From the IMG/VR virus record IMGVR_UViG_3300025889_000075, positions 91,132 through 155,131 of that record: a stretch of DNA of 64,000 nucleotides. One strand, given 5' to 3'. Under the pieces are notes generated by a model. The model ran no database searches. It was given only the letters and a program-made list of their open reading frames with translations, and had not been told where the DNA came from. The stretch is from a virus. Below, piece by piece: positions 20,716 to 43,085 of the stretch (positions within the stretch are counted from its first letter, which is position 1; each line of letters starts with the position of its first letter). The position numbers and the translations under genes are program-made.

Positions 20716-21306
20716 ATGAAACCAAGTGAAAAACCCCATTACGTTAACAACGCAGAATTTTCTGCAGCAGTCGTAAAGTACGTAAGTTCTGCTAACCAAG
20801 CGAAAGAGAATAATGAACCTAAGCCAATCATTCCTGACTATGTGGCAAGATGTTTCCTTAAAATTGCTGAAGGGTTGTCACACAAAGCAAACTTTGTTCG
20901 TTATACCTATCGCGAAGAAATGGTTATGGATGCAGTAGAGAACTGCCTCAAAGCAATTGAGAATTATAATCTGGAAACTGCAACCAGGACAGGTAAACCA
21001 AATGCTTTCGCATATTTTACCCAGATTGCTTGGTATGCATTTTTACGAAGAATTCAAAAAGAAAAGAAACAGCAAGATATCAAATTAAAGTATCTCGCTG
21101 AGTCGGGTTTAGAGCTTCTTGTTTCTGAGGAGATAGATAATGATGAAGCATCAAGACAAACCCAAGCATTTGTTGATGAATTAAGACAAAGAATCGATGT
21201 TGTCAAAGAACACGATAACCAATTTACTCAATATGTCAAAGAAGAAAAAACTAGAAGAAGAACGAGACACGCGGACTCTGACTTAACCGAATTCTTGGTG
21301 AATTAA
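20716..21306 (+). CDS. 55: Late-transcription sigma factor gp55
   Basis: The 196-residue product is the T4-type late sigma factor that recognises TATAAATA boxes with gp45 and gp33 (T4 gp55 is 185 residues). Sigma region 2-like features are visible: Y-R-E-E-M-V-M-D-A-V-E-N-C-L-K-A-I-E-N-Y near residue 75, and F-A-Y-F-T-Q-I-A-W-Y-A-F-L-R-R-I near 105. The C-terminal tail S-D-L-T-E-F-L-V-N fits the clamp-binding peptide known for T4 gp55. A GAGGCA ribosome site precedes the ATG. Confidence 0.9.
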   Translation: MKPSEKPHYVNNAEFSAAVVKYVSSANQAKENNEPKPIIPDYVARCFLKIAEGLSHKANFVRYTYREEMVMDAVENCLKAIENYNLETATRTGKPNAFAYFTQIAWYAFLRRIQKEKKQQDIKLKYLAESGLELLVSEEIDNDEASRQTQAFVDELRQRIDVVKEHDNQFTQYVKEEKTRRRTRHADSDLTEFLVN

Positions 21307-24271: not shown

Positions 24272-24946
24272 ATGCAACTAAGTGAAAAGACTGTAGAGAT
24301 TCTGCGCAACTTTTCTTCTATTAACCCCAACGTTGTTATTAATGAAGGCAAAGTTGTTAAGACTATCTCAGAGGCGAAAAACGTTTTGAGTACAGCGGTG
24401 CTTGATGACGAGTTTCCATCTACATTTGGAATCTATGATCTCAACGAATTCCTAAGTGTTATCTCTTTGGTTGACGACGCTCGACTAAAGTTTGAGAGCA
24501 CACATGTCTTAATTGGTGATGGTAGCGGTAGATCACGAATCAAGTATTTTTATTCTGATCTTGATATGCTGACTAAACCCTCTAAAGATATTATAATGCC
24601 AGAGGCAGAAGTGAAGTTTGAACTTGATGAAGAAGTATTACGTCGGGTTAAAAAAGCATCTTCTGTTCTCGGACATACAGAGATGTCAGTCTCTGCTTCA
24701 AATGGTGTGATTAGTTTATCGGTAATTGACAACAACGACAAGACTTCCAACGTCTTTTCAATTGACGTCAACGGTACGGTAAACAGCGAGAATTTTAACT
24801 TCGTATTTAACATTAGTAATCTTAAGATGATTGATGGTAATTATGATGTTTCAATTTCCTCTAAATTAATTTCGCACTTTGTTAACAAAGAAACCGCTAT
24901 CGAATATTGGGTAGCACTCGAAAAATCCAGTACGTACGGAGAATAA
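24272..24946 (+). CDS. 45: Sliding clamp gp45
   Basis: The 224-residue product is the trimeric processivity clamp, also needed for late transcription (T4 gp45 is 228 residues). The N-terminus (L-S-E-K-T-V-E-I-L-R-N-F-S-S-I-N-P) and L-N-E-F-L-S-V-I-S-L are family-specific, as is the C-terminal I-E-Y-W-V-A-L-E. It has its own promoter, fitting the large amounts needed. It is followed by a small gene and then the clamp loader gp44. Confidence 0.92.
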   Translation: MQLSEKTVEILRNFSSINPNVVINEGKVVKTISEAKNVLSTAVLDDEFPSTFGIYDLNEFLSVISLVDDARLKFESTHVLIGDGSGRSRIKYFYSDLDMLTKPSKDIIMPEAEVKFELDEEVLRRVKKASSVLGHTEMSVSASNGVISLSVIDNNDKTSNVFSIDVNGTVNSENFNFVFNISNLKMIDGNYDVSISSKLISHFVNKETAIEYWVALEKSSTYGE

Positions 24947-29372: not shown

Positions 29373-31802
29373 ATGAAATTCTATACTAATGTATCAAAAG
29401 TCGGCAACAACATCCTCTATCGAGGATACAAAGACGGTCAACGTCATTCAGAGAAAATAAAATTTAAACCGACCCTTTTCGTTGAGTCCCCAAACGCCAC
29501 TGGTGAATACAAAACCCTGTACGGCAAACCTGTTGCTCCTATGCAGTTTGACGATTTAAACGAGGCGAGGGATTTCTACGAAAGATACAAAAACGTTCAA
29601 AACTTCGAGATACACGGAATGAGTAATTTTGTGTATCAGTATCTCGCGCACGCATACCCGAACGAAGTTAAGTTTGACCGCGACCGAATCAACGTCACCA
29701 CAATAGACATTGAGGTTGCTTCAGACGAAGGGTTCCCAGAACCAGCACAGGCAAACCACCAAGTTATCTCAATTACTTGCAAGAATAATATCGACAACGT
29801 CTATTATGTTTGGGGATTATATCACTATGATGAAACCCTGAGCGAAAAAAATATTAATTATTTCCTTTGTGAAAACGAAGCAAACTTACTTCGTTCTTTC
29901 CTTGGTTGGTGGTCCAGCGCAGTCAATTACCCTGACGTTGTAACTGGTTGGAACACCAAGATGTTTGATATACCTTATCTCGTTAATAGAATTGAGCATG
30001 TCCTCGGAAACAATGAATACAAAAGACTCTCCCCATGGGGTTTGGTCAAAGAACGTAAGTTCCATACGCGCATGGGTCAGGAAGCATTCACCTACGAACT
30101 CGAAGGTATCTCTAGTCTCGATTATTATGATCTGTTTCAAAAGTTTGGCGTCCTAACCTACGGACAACAGGAATCATTTAAACTTGATCATATTGCCCAC
30201 GTTGTCCTCGGCGAGAAGAAACTATCCTATGAAGAGTACGGTTCGCTACACTCTCTTTACCGTCATGACTTTCAAAAGTTTATTGACTACAATATCAAAG
30301 ACGTTGAACTTGTCGACCGTCTCGAAGAAAAGATGGCATTGATCACGCTCGCTATGACTATGGCGTACAAAGCGAAATGTAATTATAATGATGCATTCGG
30401 CACGACTGGTATATGGGACTCTGTTATATACAACGAACTGATTCCACTCAAGATCATCGTTCCCCCAAAGGTTGACAAGTTCAAGTCATCAATCGTTGGT
30501 GGGTTCGTTAAAGATCCAAAGATTGGAATGCATGAATGGGTTTGTTCCTTTGATTTAAATTCTCTCTATCCCAATATCATTGTACAATATAATATGTCGC
30601 CCGAGACTATTAGTGAAGACGGTATTTGCGAGGCAGCAAACGGGACTCGATATCGTAATGATGTTGAAGGTATCATTCCCCGAGTAATTAAGAAGTTCTA
30701 TGCTGACCGCGTTGAAGCGAAAGATAAAATGCTCGAGGCGAAGAGAAAATATCAAGAGGCACCGACTAAAAAACTAGAGAATGAAATCACGATCTACGAT
30801 AACCAGCAGATGGCAGTTAAGATCTTGATGAACTCTCTCTATGGTGCGCTCGCGAATAAGTATTTTCGTTACTTCGATTTACGTATTGCTGAGGCAGTTA
30901 CGACCTCTGGTCAACGAGCGATCCTCTGCGCCGAGAAGGCAGTTAATGATGAGATGCAAGAAATACTTGGCACTAAAGAAGATTATGTCCTGGCGATTGA
31001 CACTGACTCAGTTTACATTAACATGGCACCTCTTGTAACTGAACATAAACCAGCGAACCCAGTTAAGTTTCTTGATAAAGTCTGTGAACATTTTGAGAAG
31101 AAGATTGCCAAGGCATATGAGAAACAAGCAAAGGAAACAAAGGCATACGAAAACCGTATGATCATGAAGCGGGAAGCGATTGCCGACCGAGGCATCTGGA
31201 CTGCTAAGAAGCGATATATACTACAGGTACACAATAACGAGGGTGTACAATATACTGAACCTAAGATGAAGGTCATGGGTATTGAGGCGATTAAATCCAG
31301 CACGCCCCAGATCTGCCGTGATAAGTTTCAGGAAATCTTTAAGGTGTTGTTGAATGGGTCTGAGTCTGAGACCCAGAAGTTTATCCGAGAGTTCAAGAAA
31401 GAGTTTTGTTCGACTCGTCCTGAGGAGGTTGCCTTTCCAAGAACTGCTAAAGAGATATCTAAGTTTCGTGATAAGAATACGATCTATGGTAAGGGCACTC
31501 CAATTCATGTGCGCGGGTCGCTTCTTTATAATCATTACATTAAGGAGAATAAATTACAAAACAAGTATGAATTAATTAAGAACGGTGAGAAGATCAAGTT
31601 TGTTTACCTCAGGACACCAAATTTTATCAAAGAAAATATCATCGCATTTCCGAACGAATTTCCAACTGAGTTGAAACTGCATAAATACGTGGACTATGAG
31701 AAAATGTTTGACAAAACATTCCTTGAACCGTTACGTCCTCTCCTCGACGCTATCGGGTGGCAGGACGAACCTAAAGCGTCCCTTGAAGATTTCTTTGGAT
31801 AA
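29373..31802 (+). CDS. 43: DNA polymerase gp43 (family B)
   Basis: The 809-residue replicative polymerase (T4: 898) has a 3'-5' exonuclease with ExoI D112-I-E114 and later Y-x-x-x-D (Y-N-I-K-D). Polymerase motif A is [11 protein letters not shown] near 393, motif B is [10 protein letters not shown] near 488, and motif C is D543-T-D545-S. The C-terminal tail (A-S-L-E-D-F-F-G) resembles the T4/RB69 tail that binds the gp45 clamp. The gene has its own strong promoter, with the ATG 6 nt after the -10 box. Confidence 0.96.
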
Positions 31803-36407: not shown

Positions 36408-36671
36408 ATGGATCCATTATATCAAACGGTCTTAACACTTTTTTGTATGTTTGGTGCATATCTTTGGGGTAGGTCCCAAGGAGTTATGTCTGGTTGTACA
36501 ATGACTTGGTTGGTTGTTATTGAGAGTTTTCGAGCGAAAGAATTGAATATTGATGAAGATACCCAAGAAATATTCTTTACGGATAATTGGGGCAGAGTCA
36601 AAAGTTCTCTAACATTTTGGAATGAAGATGGAAATCGAGATAAAGAACCAGAAGTTCTTGAGCAGACTTAA
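36408..36671 (+). CDS. Small membrane protein downstream of gp41
   Basis: The 87-residue product has one hydrophobic helix at residues 5-25 (Q-T-V-L-T-L-F-C-M-F-G-A-Y-L-W-G) and a soluble C-terminal domain with I-D-E-D-T-Q-E-I-F-F-T-D. A GGAGAAACGT site precedes the ATG. It overlaps the next gene by 50 nt. No family is recognised. Confidence 0.6.
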   Translation: MDPLYQTVLTLFCMFGAYLWGRSQGVMSGCTMTWLVVIESFRAKELNIDEDTQEIFFTDNWGRVKSSLTFWNEDGNRDKEPEVLEQT

Positions 36672-37278
36672 TGGTCTGATTGAAGAGTTTAATAGTATTA
36701 GAGGCGATTCTATACTACCTTCTATAAAATCTGTTGATTCTAATTTTGAATCATATCTTTCAAGAGAAAGACTTAATGAGTTAATGTCCGCTCCTCATCG
36801 CGGGGATCCAGTGGACTATCATGCCACACCCGTTGGTGATCTTAGATTAAAATATTCTGAATGGATTAATTTTTATAATGAATGGCGATTTGAAGTTCCT
36901 TCAGAAATGGGTATGGCAACTTGTGCGTTGATCAATCATTATCCTGAACAAGGATTGACGGGTTGGCATACTAATTGGAATGCCAATGCATATCAAATCC
37001 TTTTCACTTGGTCAGAAACAGGCGATGGGTACTTTTGTTACTTAGATAAAGAAAAAGATGAAATAATTAAAATTCAGGACAAACCTGGATGGCAATGTAG
37101 GTGGTTCTATTTCGGTAGAGAAGACGAACCTGAACATCATTGTTGGCATGGTTGTTATACGAATTGTGAAAGATTTACACTAGCATATAAATTTTCAAAT
37201 CAAAGTAAAAACTCAAAAGTAGATTTAATTGCTCAGGAGATGAGAGATGAATTTATCGCAGAGATCACAACAGTTTAA
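36622..37278 (+). CDS. 2OG-Fe(II) oxygenase-like protein
   Basis: The 218-residue product has a C-terminal beta-helix pattern: G-W-H-T-N-W-N (where H-x-D would be expected), F-C-Y-L-D, and C-W-H-G-C-Y-T-N-C-E-R-F-T-L-A-Y with distal H and R. The first motif reads H-T-N rather than H-x-D, so metal binding may be altered. It overlaps the membrane gene upstream by 50 nt and the hydrolase downstream by 32 nt. ATG 36622 or 36628 is possible as start. Substrate unknown. Confidence 0.55.
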   Translation: MKMEIEIKNQKFLSRLNGLIEEFNSIRGDSILPSIKSVDSNFESYLSRERLNELMSAPHRGDPVDYHATPVGDLRLKYSEWINFYNEWRFEVPSEMGMATCALINHYPEQGLTGWHTNWNANAYQILFTWSETGDGYFCYLDKEKDEIIKIQDKPGWQCRWFYFGREDEPEHHCWHGCYTNCERFTLAYKFSNQSKNSKVDLIAQEMRDEFIAEITTV

Positions 37279-37903: not shown

Positions 37904-37915
37904 ATTATGAAATGG

Positions 37916-37944
37916 TTGACAAATAAGATAGAAAATAGTAAGAT
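37916..37944 (+). promoter_or_regulatory. Host sigma70-type promoter for the base-modification operon
   Basis: A perfect TTGACA at 37916-37921 and TAAGAT at 37939-37944 are 17 nt apart in the gap after the hydrolase gene. It precedes the run 37987-41239, whose genes overlap each other. Confidence 0.78.
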
Positions 37945-37986
37945 GGAACTATTCTTGGATACTATTGGACTTGAGGAATTTATGTT

Positions 37987-38316
37987 ATGAAACAAAACTT
38001 ATTCACTGAAGGTGTACAATATCGAAAGTTGTTGCCTGAACTTTCTTTAATGACTGTCTATGGTAAAAAAGATGTCGTTATGAAGCGATGTAAATGTTGC
38101 GGCGTGGTAAAATGTGGAAGCGAGTTTTATTTAAAACCAAATTCAAAAACCGAATTAAGAGATTTTTGCACCTCCTGTCACTCCAAAGATACACAAGAAA
38201 GAAGTAAAAGACTTAGATATAAAACCGCAAAGTATAAAGAAATGGTGCGGCGCAGAAAAGAAGAAGAAAAACGAAAGCGAGAAAATGCAGGATCTCTAGA
38301 GGAATTCATGGTATGA
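37987..38316 (+). CDS. Small zinc-binding protein with clamp-tail-like C-terminus
   Basis: The 109-residue product has two cysteine pairs, C-K-C-C-G-V-V-K-C near residue 35 and C-T-S-C-H near 60, forming a zinc-ribbon like the N-terminal module of some HNH endonucleases. No HNH catalytic residues follow. A very basic helix leads to the end G-S-L-E-E-F-M-V, which resembles the tails of gp43 and the two proteins encoded next. Its stop overlaps the dioxygenase start (ATGA). A DNA-binding adaptor is plausible but unproven. Confidence 0.6.
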   Translation: MKQNLFTEGVQYRKLLPELSLMTVYGKKDVVMKRCKCCGVVKCGSEFYLKPNSKTELRDFCTSCHSKDTQERSKRLRYKTAKYKEMVRRRKEEEKRKRENAGSLEEFMV

Positions 38317-39644
38317 GAGTTGTCATTGCTGACAAAGTAATTAATTGCGAACACAAACTCGGTACATATATGGAAGATACCGATTACGATCTCTTGGTTG
38401 AAGAGGATATTGACTTCTATGCGCCGATTAAAGAAATTGGTAGAACAGAACCATCAGAGCAAGAGTGTATATTCAAGTTTCGAAAATCTGTGTTTAGCGC
38501 CGAAGAACAACTTGGCGCGTACGAAGGTTTGGTTGGCGCTGCTCAACCAACTCAGAACCGAGGTCTTGCTGCAGGTCCAAAGGGCGAGCGCCTCGGTAGT
38601 AGAAATTGGTGTACTGAAGAGCAAATAGAAATTATGGAACATCTTATGAAAGGCGGAACTTCGCTTTTCTCTGACGACCCAATTGCTGAGATACGCGAAA
38701 AACATAGAAAAATGAAAGTGCAGCCAGAGAGTCGTGGTATTGTTTGGGTTATAACTAAGATTGAAGCGGATGGGTATGAATATGATAATTTCTTTGAAAA
38801 TAAAATTCAGGAAATATTAAAACTTCCTTACGCCGATCGCCGCACAGCTGCTAAACATATGTTCGATACTTACGTATCAAAAACAACTTACGCAAATCAA
38901 GTTTTATCTGGTATTGCTGGATTCTACGATCGATATCCTCGTATTCCTTACGGTCGGGCAACTTCTTATACTGAACATAACTTTTCAACTTATGAAAAAT
39001 GTTATCCATTCATGAGAAAACTATCAAATGAATTTGCCCGACTACTACCTCAGAAGTTTTCTAAACAAGAACATTATGCCAATAAACTTGATGAGCGTTT
39101 TCGAGTTGCCGGTAAAGATACACCATTTACAACAATTACAGTAAATAAAAATTTTAGAACTTCAGCGCATCGCGACGCAGGCGACTTGAGCGAAGGGTTT
39201 TCTAATTTAACAGTTGTCGCTAAAGAAAAGGATTGGGATGGTGGTTATCTTGTGTTGCCCGAATATAGAGTAGCAATCAATGTAAGACCAGGGGATTTAT
39301 TGTTAATTAATAATCATGAAGGTATACATGGCAATACACAAATCATACCGAAAGAAGGAAAAACTTTGGATGAGATGGAACGTATTTCCCTAGTTTGCTA
39401 TTTCCGTGAAAAAATGCTAGAATTGGGTACAATGGAATATGAAAACCATCGTTACAATTTTGTTATCAGTAGAAAAAATAATGAATCACATCCAAATTGG
39501 CGCCCACTTTGGAACGGTGTTAGTGAAGGAATGTGGGAATCAGATGAATGGTTTGATTATCTTGAAACCAACGGCGGTTCTGATATGTTAAATACATATC
39601 ATCCTAATAATGAAAAGTCATCCCTTGAGGCATTTTTTGCATGA
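38313..39644 (+). CDS. TET/JBP-family 2OG-Fe(II) DNA base dioxygenase
   Basis: The 443-residue product matches the phage TET/JBP oxygenase family, which hydroxylates 5-methylcytosine or thymine in DNA. The catalytic domain covers roughly residues 270-370: H286-R-D288 in F-R-T-S-A-H-R-D-A-G-D, then a G-G-Y-L-V-L-P-E strand, distal H339 in H-G-N-T-Q, and an R in E-R-I-S-L-V-C-Y-F. The N-terminal 230 residues include a T-Q-N-R-G-L-A-A region. The C-terminus S-S-L-E-A-F-F-A resembles the gp43 clamp tail. It overlaps its neighbours by ATGA on both sides. No cytosine-5 methyltransferase is seen nearby. Confidence 0.78.
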   Translation: MRVVIADKVINCEHKLGTYMEDTDYDLLVEEDIDFYAPIKEIGRTEPSEQECIFKFRKSVFSAEEQLGAYEGLVGAAQPTQNRGLAAGPKGERLGSRNWCTEEQIEIMEHLMKGGTSLFSDDPIAEIREKHRKMKVQPESRGIVWVITKIEADGYEYDNFFENKIQEILKLPYADRRTAAKHMFDTYVSKTTYANQVLSGIAGFYDRYPRIPYGRATSYTEHNFSTYEKCYPFMRKLSNEFARLLPQKFSKQEHYANKLDERFRVAGKDTPFTTITVNKNFRTSAHRDAGDLSEGFSNLTVVAKEKDWDGGYLVLPEYRVAINVRPGDLLLINNHEGIHGNTQIIPKEGKTLDEMERISLVCYFREKMLELGTMEYENHRYNFVISRKNNESHPNWRPLWNGVSEGMWESDEWFDYLETNGGSDMLNTYHPNNEKSSLEAFFA

Positions 39645-40447
39645 TTGATTACCAGATAGCAGTCCCCAGTTACAAACGACCAGTAACTATTCAAAACAAA
39701 ACACTCAAAGTATTTGAACATCATAACATACCATCCGAAAGAGTTACTATTTTCGTTGCAGACGAAATAGAACATGAAGCATATAAGGTTGCTCTAAATA
39801 ATCACAAATATGGTTCAAACATCGTCATAGGCGTCCCCACAATTGGTGCACAGCGTAATTTTATTGAGAAGTATTATCCCGAAGGCACATTATTAATGAT
39901 GTTTGATGATGACATTGAAGAAGTCCAAAGAAGGCAAGACGAAAAAACTCTTGTACCTATTGACGATTTGTATTCTGAAATCATCGAACAAGGATTTAAT
40001 AAGTGTGCTGAAGTTGGTGCTAAGACCTTCGGTATATATGCAGCATCAAACGCATATTTCATGAAAGATCGAGTTTATACGAAACTTTGTTATATTATTG
40101 CTTCTATGTTTGGCGTCGTCGTTGAGCATGATGATTATCTCGCGCGCGAAACAAATCACGGCGAAGATTATGAATATAGTTTGCGCCAATATGTTAAGAA
40201 TGGTGTTCTCTGCCGACTTGATAACTATACTGTTAAAAGCAACTACTATAAAGAAGAAGGTGGATTACAAACCATTAGAACTAAAGATTATGTACACGAA
40301 TCAATTAGCAAGATTGCTAATATGTTTCCTGACCTTTGTACGATGTACACGCGTAAATCTACTGGTAACGCTGAACTAAGATTACGAGATAGCACTAATG
40401 GTAAATATCAAAAAGCAGAATCAACCCTTGAGGCATTTTTCGTATGA
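39641..40447 (+). CDS. TAGT-like glycosyltransferase (TET-associated)
   Basis: The 268-residue product has a GT-A-type fold pattern: I-A-V-P-S-Y-K-R-P near the start, G-A-Q-R-N-F and the metal-binding L-M-M-F-D-D-D-I near residue 90, and N-H-G-E-D-Y-E-Y-S near 170. It fits TET-associated glycosyltransferases, which are thought to glycosylate the hydroxymethyl base made by the neighbouring oxygenase. The C-terminus S-T-L-E-A-F-F-V nearly repeats the oxygenase tail. ATGA overlaps link it to both neighbours. A protein target cannot be excluded. Confidence 0.72.
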   Translation: MIDYQIAVPSYKRPVTIQNKTLKVFEHHNIPSERVTIFVADEIEHEAYKVALNNHKYGSNIVIGVPTIGAQRNFIEKYYPEGTLLMMFDDDIEEVQRRQDEKTLVPIDDLYSEIIEQGFNKCAEVGAKTFGIYAASNAYFMKDRVYTKLCYIIASMFGVVVEHDDYLARETNHGEDYEYSLRQYVKNGVLCRLDNYTVKSNYYKEEGGLQTIRTKDYVHESISKIANMFPDLCTMYTRKSTGNAELRLRDSTNGKYQKAESTLEAFFV

Positions 40448-40857
40448 TCGTAGGATTTACTGCAAGCACATTTGACTTGCTTCACGCTGGTCATATTTCT
40501 ATGCTGCGCGAAGCAAAAGAGCAATGCGAATACTTAATTTGTGGTTTGCAAGTTGATCCTTCGTTAGATCGCCCAGAAAAAAATAAACCTGTACAAACTT
40601 TGGTTGAACGTTATATCCAGCTGTCTGCTGTTAAATACGTTGATGAAATTATACCGTATCAATCTGAAGAAGATTTAGAAGATATACTCAAAATGGTTAG
40701 TATCGACATACGTATTATTGGTGCTGAGTATAAGGATAAAAAATTTACTGGTCGCGCTACTTGTGCTTCTCGTGGAATTGAAATATTCTATAACAAGAGA
40801 GACCATAGATTTTCAACCAGCGATTTAAGGAGAAGAGTTAGTGAACTACAAATTTAA
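40444..40857 (+). CDS. Cytidylyltransferase-like nucleotidyltransferase (TagD type)
   Basis: The 137-residue product has the H-x-G-H motif (F-D-L-L-H-A-G-H) at about residues 10-17 and the closing F-S-T-S-D-L-R-R-R, both typical of glycerol-3-phosphate cytidylyltransferases and relatives. It could make a CDP- or other activated donor. The overlap with the glycosyltransferase suggests it supplies substrate for DNA base decoration, which is inference. The end overlaps the DUF3310-like gene by 17 nt. Confidence 0.8.
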   Translation: MIVGFTASTFDLLHAGHISMLREAKEQCEYLICGLQVDPSLDRPEKNKPVQTLVERYIQLSAVKYVDEIIPYQSEEDLEDILKMVSIDIRIIGAEYKDKKFTGRATCASRGIEIFYNKRDHRFSTSDLRRRVSELQI

Positions 40858-42248: not shown

Positions 42249-43085
42249 ATGAAACAATTAAAGACGCCCTTGAGATATCCTGGTGGTAAATCAAGGGCAA
42301 CCAAGTTTTTATTTTCTAAACTTCCTGAAAAAATTCGTGCTTACCGTGAACCATTCTTAGGTGGTGGGTCAGTAGCGATTGAGTTCACTAAACGATTTCC
42401 AGATTGCCCCGTTTGGGTTAATGATAAGTATGCTAATCTTTATCATTTCTGGTCTCAACTTCAGAAAAACGGTGAGGCGCTATATAGTGCTATCTTAAAC
42501 TACAAGTTGAAGGCAGAATCGTATGAAGACGTGGATGCAGCACATCGAGAACTTTTTCTCAAAAGTCGAGAGGAAATCAGTGGACCTCTTGATCCTTTTG
42601 GGATTGCTGTTCGCTTTTTCATTATCAATAAGTGCAGTTTTTCTGGTCTTGGGGAATCTAGTGGATTTTCCGCAGCAGCAAGTAAACAAAACTTTTCCAA
42701 AAACAATATATCGCGATTACCAAAATATTCAGAACTGATTCAGAATTGGTTGATCACTAATAATGATTACACAAAAATCTTAGAAGGTTGTGAACAAGAC
42801 GAGTTTGTTTTCTGTGATCCACCATATGATATTAAATCAGCATTATATGGTAAGAATGGTAAGTATCATTTGTTTTTTGATCATTATGAGTTTTCTGTTG
42901 ACGCAACAAAATGCGCAGGTAATGTAATGATAACGTATAATTCAAATGAAGTACTTCGCGAAATTTATGAGGACTGGAATCAAATAGAATGGGACTTGAC
43001 TTACACTATGCATTCAGGTAAGATGTATCGTGAAGATGAGTCAAACAGAAAGGAATTGCTAATAACAAATTATGAAACTAAATGA
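42249..43085 (+). CDS. dam: DNA adenine methyltransferase (D12 class, Dam-like)
   Basis: The 278-residue product has the D12-class motifs of N6-adenine methylases: L-R-Y-P-G-G-K-S-R at the N-terminus, F-L-G-G-G-S-V (SAM binding) near residue 37, and catalytic F-C-D-P-P-Y near 192. Dam-type enzymes methylate GATC; the actual site cannot be read here. It could protect phage DNA from restriction or from the nuclease encoded upstream. Confidence 0.9.
   Translation: MKQLKTPLRYPGGKSRATKFLFSKLPEKIRAYREPFLGGGSVAIEFTKRFPDCPVWVNDKYANLYHFWSQLQKNGEALYSAILNYKLKAESYEDVDAAHRELFLKSREEISGPLDPFGIAVRFFIINKCSFSGLGESSGFSAAASKQNFSKNNISRLPKYSELIQNWLITNNDYTKILEGCEQDEFVFCDPPYDIKSALYGKNGKYHLFFDHYEFSVDATKCAGNVMITYNSNEVLREIYEDWNQIEWDLTYTMHSGKMYREDESNRKELLITNYETK

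Follow-up and report, generated by a model that had tools for sequence, protein, structure and literature searches.

Polymerase-type C-terminal tails on a TET dioxygenase and its partner glycosyltransferase suggest that phage DNA hypermodification docks on the sliding clamp

Why do enzymes that modify DNA bases end in the same short peptide as the DNA polymerase of the same virus? The question is raised by a cassette in the virus record IMGVR_UViG_3300025889_000075 (155,131 bases, labeled G000), of which we analyzed the right-hand 64 kb (the window); window features are given in window positions and lie on the plus strand. The phage is marine and T4-like, and its window encodes a replication set of the T4 type that includes DNA polymerase gp43 (29373..31802; DNA_pol_B, 1.4e-28), the late sigma factor gp55 (20716..21306) and the sliding clamp gp45 (24272..24946, 224 aa; gp45-slide_C, 1.9e-14), our proposed docking partner. 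The cassette comprises a zinc-binding protein (37987..38316, 109 aa), a TET/JBP dioxygenase (38313..39644, 443 aa; Tet_JBP, 1.7e-23), a TET-associated glycosyltransferase (TAGT; 39641..40447, 268 aa; 5.2e-16) and a cytidylyltransferase-like enzyme (40444..40857, 137 aa; CTP_transf_like, 1.7e-15), joined by ATGA overlaps at 38313, 39641 and 40444. The preliminary description of this DNA had named these overlaps and these proteins; the overlaps are real, and the identities are backed by Pfam or PHROG profiles (for gp55, phrog_234 'late sigma', E 8e-52). We consider it highly probable that the TET and TAGT ends are gp45-binding motifs of the gp43/gp55 type, with which the two enzymes would dock on the clamp and modify DNA behind the replication fork.

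The polymerase ends ASLEDFFG (31776-31799) and gp55 ends SDLTEFLVN (21277-21303), while the zinc-binding protein, TET and TAGT end GSLEEFMV (38290-38313), SSLEAFFA (39618-39641) and STLEAFFV (40421-40444), all five as first described. A strict form of this tail occurs on exactly these five of the 236 genes of at least 30 aa called across the 155-kb record, which was scanned as six partly overlapping pieces; when proteins of the collected loci are cut at random internal points, the tail rate is 0.8% (220/27,660). The earlier description had overlooked a further tail, IGLEEFML (codons 37967-37987), on a 27-residue open reading frame (ORF) at 37907..37990. In AlphaFold2 models the TET tail (residues 437-443) scores below 50 in the predicted local distance difference test (pLDDT) and contains a short helix at 438-442, while the final block of TAGT (261-268) has a pLDDT of 52; both ends are thus modeled as a disordered arm outside the fold. 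Passages of PMC2988020 describe the C-termini of T4 gp43, gp55 and gp33 as interchangeable gp45 ligands and state that the end of RB69 gp43 has been crystallized on its clamp. The window tails resemble these peptides in their position at the extreme C-terminus, their hydrophobic and acidic residues and the variable linker before them. They differ in what carries them: the ligands named in those passages are polymerase, late sigma factor, co-activator and clamp loader, whereas here they are base-modifying enzymes.

Loss of the tails in relatives had been set beforehand as grounds for giving up the idea; the tails of TET and TAGT proved to be conserved while the linker varies. Relatives were drawn from 654 loci, retrieved with peptides that lie outside the tails and matched over at least 80% of query length; each count refers to distinct sequences, some of them truncated ORFs, and not to independent events. 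Tailed ends were found on 119 of 132 TETs, 52 of 58 TAGTs and all 116 gp43 relatives. Among gp55 relatives 49 of 77 fit the tail expression; many of the other 28 keep SDLxx followed by other residues, and a few have no such element. The clamp itself is untailed (0/63). A tail on the cytidylyltransferase was considered and rejected: this enzyme, presumed to perform a small-molecule step and thus an in-cassette negative control, ends SELQI, and none of its 49 relatives is tailed. A scan of viral contigs found 62 TET loci with 48-100% identity in the best segment, mostly full length; 56 of the 61 readable TETs have an L-x-x-[FML]-F-type end (SLExFF, STLEDMFG, SKLEDMFGE) and five end KKKVSLWS. Across 29 aligned TETs, L438 is invariant (29/29) and E439 and F442 are conserved at 0.93 and 0.97, compared with a mean of 0.58 for linker 421-436. 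Even the distant TET of phage Melnitz3 (26.6% identity to the window TET) ends GNLNDFLGE. The zinc-binding protein has two other distinct relatives, both ending SLEEFMVWK, and its sole viral-contig match is a 100% identical copy, so its tail rests on itself and those two.

The tail extends to other enzyme families. Among 5,532 distinct ORFs from loci retrieved as relatives of TET, TAGT, gp43, gp55 and the zinc-binding protein, 334 were tailed versus 44 expected from internal cut points. Besides TET (86), gp43 (79), TAGT (52) and gp55 (45), two unexpected tailed groups of 20 and 12 emerged: amino acid:DNA transferase (ADDT; PF18724, ~1e-23), whose gene immediately precedes that of TET in many relatives, and a GNAT acetyltransferase encoded upstream of ADDT. 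Whole-genome scans added a D12 adenine methyltransferase (STLDAFFG) beside gp43 in phage C48C1 and the Mom protein of Melnitz3 (PF25680, 7e-49; TATLEGFF). Tails were present on 53 of 72 distinct ADDT relatives, 28 of 37 GNAT, 56 of 57 Mom and 51 of 54 members of the C48C1-type D12 subfamily.

In the window the TET and TAGT tails are also alike at the DNA level, CTTGAGGCATTTTTYG, and GAGG sits just upstream of the overlapping ATGs. This raises the possibility that the tails are a functionless by-product of translational coupling, with CTTGAGG...ATGA supplying both a Shine-Dalgarno (SD) sequence and an overlapping start; indeed, a start lies no more than 25 nt from the stop in 113 of the 119 tailed TET genes, and 85 of these also have an SD-like word. 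A nearby start is found for only 23 of 56 tailed Mom, 24 of 51 D12 and 30 of 52 TAGT genes, however, so tails persist without a coupled gene. Six different leucine codons encode the TET tail leucine, gp43 has the same peptide with a function known in T4 and RB69, and the cytidylyltransferase overlaps its neighbor yet is untailed. Coupling also leaves unexplained the VNLLSMM- and RKLW-type tails described below. With a conserved peptide, varied codons and a downstream start that is often absent, we rejected this explanation as largely refuted and extremely improbable. The DNA likeness of these adjacent genes would also fit an ancestral fusion or recombination that spread one C-terminal cassette among neighbors, so that the tails reflect transfer and not selection for binding. 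Against this, tails persist between relatives of ~50% identity, the 119 TETs contain 74 distinct nucleotide cores, the invariant leucine stands beside a varying linker, and tailed genes also lie apart, as do Mom and gp43 in Melnitz3. Transfer could be how the tails originated but not why they were retained, and as an account of their likeness it is very unlikely.

The strongest evidence for clamp docking, at the level of sequence, is that the tails of modification enzymes co-diverge with that of their own polymerase. Relatives of ADDT pointed to phages beyond the SLExFF group. One is Salmonella phage Vi01, where the polymerase has RVNLLSMMGKKG, the ADDT SVNLMSLLKR, and the two 5-hydroxymethyldeoxyuridine (5hmdU) DNA kinases SVSLLGLMRKA and SVNLLDRLKKPE. 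Another is Vibrio phage D506, with ARKLW on the polymerase, TRKLW on the ADDT, and TKKLW and TKRLW on the two kinases. The same sharing was observed in the Ackermannviridae phages phiMAM1, KN2-1 and PP35 (VNLLSMM-type) and in Vibrio phage K475 (RKLW-type), whose kinases are named by annotation or position, not by profile. A gp45 match is present in D506 and in Vi01, the latter weak (2e-5) and under the cut-off. Ranking the ORFs of ten genomes with nothing but the end of their own polymerase as query placed 21 of 24 modification enzymes in the top 10 of 416-855 ORFs, compared with 0 of 18 other proteins (gp45, cytidylyltransferases, thymidylate-synthase-like proteins and two untailed Dam adenine methyltransferases). 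In four genomes the tails of other lineages were also used as queries, and none brought a modification enzyme into the top 10. No such tails occur on the deoxyribonucleotidases of four Ackermannviridae or on the thymidylate-synthase-like proteins of Vi01 and D506. The final ranking allows a two-residue C-terminal overhang, with the G033 query moved by one residue; without the overhang, tails with a terminal FF came far down the list (Mom 104, GNAT 209, Cr30 TAGT 155, G033 TET 55 and TAGT 130). Record G032 is not part of the rankings; a check of its 387 ORFs found no homologue of gp43, while its TET ends ASLEGFF and its TAGT NTLESFF.

Phages in which no clamp was found offer a second comparison. 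A PF09116 (gp45) match was not found in 8 of the 17 records searched, and the eleven modification enzymes of these eight records include no full tail and two borderline ends. These are the S-CBWM1 TAGT (HELEDLLP), tailed under a looser expression, and the Bane2 ADDT (AGLRRFK), which resembles the GLERFT with which certain other ADDTs end. Within this set the Bane2 TET falls under the Pfam cut-off (26.1 versus 34.9), the PAN70 record is a partial genome, and the Altadena enzyme pair was identified by annotation and tblastn. That two other lineages copy their own polymerase's tail, and that the enzymes of records without a gp45 match lack a full one, supports the reading of the TET and TAGT ends as clamp-type tails. 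Since gp45 binding is inferred from sequence and a polymerase has several partners, the tail might instead dock the clamp loader, single-strand binding protein, primase-helicase or late-transcription machinery, and gp55 does carry it in the window phage. We regard this as improbable, given that the terminal peptides of T4/RB69 gp43 and gp55 bind gp45 (passages of PMC2988020) and that relatives in records without a gp45 match have no full tail, two ends being borderline.

Several observations weigh against clamp docking as a general rule. The window's own D12-class Dam (42249..43085), of another subfamily, is untailed, as are all its distinct relatives (0/15); the Melnitz3 HhaI-type methyltransferase ends QNAETNG and ranks 352 of 433. 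Cyanophage Dams (3/3, one annotated only as a fragment) and the Mom-like proteins of DSL-LC03, Phynn and S-SSM6a (cyanophage/Pantoea; 3/3) are untailed; gp45 was searched in three of these six records and found in all three, and it is annotated in S-PM2. T4 alpha-glucosyltransferase (alpha-GT), beta-GT and Dam also lack the tail, and alpha-GT reportedly binds gp45, so the motif is not necessary. In Cr30 the TET stops at GATLF and the ADDT ends WFKVL, while its TAGT keeps the tail SDLSKLF. Of the five TET loci that end KKKVSLWS, one (L010) has a tailed gp43. A baseplate protein in C48C1 and G031 fits the tail expression, so the motif alone is no proof of clamp binding. The three enzymes outside the top 10 were Cr30 TET (86), Cr30 ADDT (208) and G016 ADDT (49). 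The two Dams act on DNA and can be counted as modification enzymes, that is, as exceptions; the ranking result then becomes 21/26 and 0/16, and 21/27 when the Melnitz3 methyltransferase is added. Finally, the tail expressions and the Vi01 query segment were picked after the tails had been seen, and the overhang ranking repeats an earlier one. The co-divergence result is unaffected by the Dam exceptions, by the second borderline end and by Cr30 as an exception to the mutual exclusion of ADDT and TAGT described below.

Taken together, the shared peptide, linker, predicted disorder and co-divergence make docking on the clamp the best explanation. The C-terminal peptides of TET and TAGT would be sliding-clamp ligands of the same type as those of gp43 and gp55, each tethered to its catalytic domain by a flexible linker. 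The enzymes may dock on gp45 rings left on new DNA and act on the duplex just behind the fork, where TET would hydroxylate the methyl group of a base, most likely thymine, to give 5-hydroxymethyluracil (5hmU), and TAGT would then attach a sugar to the oxidized base. Enzymes of the small-molecule pathway would stay soluble and untailed. We suggest that the pattern is wider, if not universal, in phages with a gp45-type clamp, and that many enzymes acting on the DNA polymer copy their own polymerase's tail: TET, TAGT, ADDT, GNAT, Mom, one D12-methyltransferase subfamily and both types of 5hmdU DNA kinase. In such phages hypermodification is probably a common activity of the replisome, with the enzymes forming a clamp toolbelt, the copied tail co-evolving with the clamp, and glycosylated 5hmU as the product here.

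How does this compare with known systems? In kinetoplastids, base J arises by Fe(II)/2-oxoglutarate (2OG) oxidation of a base methyl group followed by glycosylation, both in DNA. The window cassette resembles this route and phage TET plus TAGT hypermodification in the predicted oxidation of a base methyl group and subsequent glycosylation in DNA. It differs in the clamp-type tails of its enzymes, and searches of G000 found neither a C5-methyltransferase nor a thymidylate-synthase homologue or 5hmdU kinase. In ViI-type hypermodification, 5hmdU DNA kinase and ADDT act on DNA post-replicatively (portions of PMC6449724). The likeness lies in post-replicative enzymes, whose tails we found to copy that of their own polymerase; the differences from the window phage are that hydroxymethylation takes place at the nucleotide level and that the tail is of the VNLLSMM type, not the SLExFF type. 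In animals, Dnmt1 is brought to new DNA by a PCNA-binding domain (passages of PMC9440122 and PMC9690074), and Tet1 is described as recruited via Uhrf1, with a putative PCNA-binding domain whose interaction would need restoring (PMC9440122, in part). Dnmt1 is likewise a clamp-recruited DNA-modifying enzyme, though enzyme, clamp and motif are all unrelated.

The closest precedent is T4 alpha-GT. The relevant passages of PMC13216743 report co-purification with gp45 for alpha-GT but not for beta-GT, refer to earlier in vitro work, and credit the in vivo share of alpha-GT to expression and activity, not to clamp binding. Like TAGT, alpha-GT is a DNA-modifying glycosyltransferase, there reported as a clamp binder; unlike the GT-A-fold TAGT (PMC13216743, in part), it has a GT-B fold, ends FDIITK and is untailed. 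Those passages describe no TET, TAGT, ADDT or kinase as clamp-bound. Passages of the DLP6 paper name 18 restriction enzymes as a panel, and no outcome of a digestion was found in them. Among the matches listed from the open-access literature, mostly at title/abstract level and thus weak evidence of absence, we found no description of clamp-binding tails on TET, TAGT, ADDT, Mom or 5hmdU kinases. The preliminary description had regarded clamp-tethered TET/TAGT enzymes as undescribed; no TET or TAGT precedent was found, but the alpha-GT report trims the claim. A DNA-modifying glycosyltransferase that binds the clamp had already been reported, and the new part would be the polymerase-type tail on modification enzymes.

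Which base do the window enzymes modify? TET and TAGT clear the curated cut-offs of PF12851 (83.1 bits versus 34.9) and PF20691 (59.6 versus 27.5). H286, D288, H339 and R357 of TET are invariant in 36 aligned sequences; we take the first three to be the HxD...H iron triad and R357 to be the 2OG arginine. A Foldseek structure search with TET returned fungal and Naegleria TETs at the top, then TET2, with a query TM-score of at most 0.42. TAGT has a D89-D90-D91 motif in which D90 and D91 are invariant and D89 nearly so (31 rows), all three being invariant in a 26-row alignment. No PF00145 C5-cytosine methyltransferase, PF00303 thymidylate-synthase homologue or 5hmdU DNA kinase (PF18747, PF18723) was found in G000. 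PF00145 occurs in 1 of 20 records, Melnitz3, so a TET pathway dependent on 5-methylcytosine would lack its methyltransferase in G000; thymidylate synthase was found in Cr30 only among the TET-bearing records searched. With none of these three activities found, by exclusion TET seems rather likely to oxidize thymine in DNA, with TAGT glycosylating it to a base-J-like product, although host enzymes, other phage routes (such as ThyX, outside the search) or record incompleteness could supply alternatives.

The 27-residue ORF upstream of the cassette (MKWLTNKIENSKMELFLDTIGLEEFML) bears on how this pathway arose. It aligns to the ADDT C-terminus (best E 1.6e-6, blastp-short against the 72 distinct ADDTs only), which marks it as a C-terminal fossil of an ADDT gene. 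Among 44 contig TET loci with more than 1.5 kb on both sides, 18 have an ADDT and 12 a TAGT, and no locus has the two together in the collected flanks; Cr30 breaks this pattern, since both an ADDT and a low-scoring TAGT (19.7 bits, under cut-off) lie near its TET. Judged from synteny, the fossil and this exclusivity suggest that an ADDT-type ancestor of the window phage exchanged ADDT for TAGT and retained the entry oxygenase.

If enzymes ride on the clamp, several features of phage biology would make sense. Newly synthesized phage DNA is open to restriction until it is modified, and clamp-mounted enzymes would close that gap. Clamp mounting could also explain how such enzymes might prefer new phage DNA, and docking would account for a sequence feature shared by three lineages. 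Tail copying in several phage lineages suggests that DNA is decorated immediately behind the fork. Comparing C-termini with that of the polymerase would further provide a way to find unknown DNA-modifying proteins, and this search rule already picks known hypermodification enzymes plus a few unnamed small proteins. Vi01_049c (L669:10355-10567, -; 70 aa; KVNLLSLMRK) and VPHD506_0077 (L678:15591-15890, +; 99 aa; KTKRLW) carry their own polymerase's tail and are candidate late-transcription co-activators or clamp ligands of an unnamed kind. In G016 a 208-aa protein without a Pfam or PHROG match (L411:832-1458, -) ends SNLEDFFGE, the best match to the polymerase tail after gp43 itself.

Further observations concern variants of these loci. 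One TET-TAGT pair (L003:4570-6942) sits elsewhere, between gp55 and gp45, with its tails kept. The KKKVSLWS-ending TETs (L010-L013, L050) have no ADDT or TAGT in the collected flanks; the gp43 of L010 is still tailed. Two HNH-like proteins 3' of TET (L016:7956-8621 and L007:7957-8628) end NTLEKFFV and NTLEEFFV, and four other distinct relatives are untailed. In records G015, G016 and G021 (L090-L095) the polymerase is split into two ORFs (~483 and ~366 aa) that lie ~270 bases apart, with the clamp tail on the second part only. The T4 baseplate proteins at L361:15098-15805 (-) and L410:7138-7869 (-) end GIDDFF and GLTDFF, probably as motif mimics. A nucleotide search for TET plus TAGT across phages matched one record. 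The window gp45 aligns with the RB69 clamp (1b77/1b8h, E 2.8e-24), and the zinc-binding protein resembles endonuclease VII/HNH zinc modules (phrog_2255, 6.6e-8; phrog_1035, 2.2e-7). The preliminary description had placed a sigma70-type promoter before the cassette; a match (TTGACA-17-TAAGAT) does exist at 37916..37944, but as a promoter it is unsupported, the 16 such matches in the region being at the chance level of 17.2 +/- 3.8 in shuffles. Upstream of the cassette, a 218-aa protein (36622-37278) without a Pfam or PHROG match contains HTNWN and CWHG elements reminiscent of a 2OG oxygenase.

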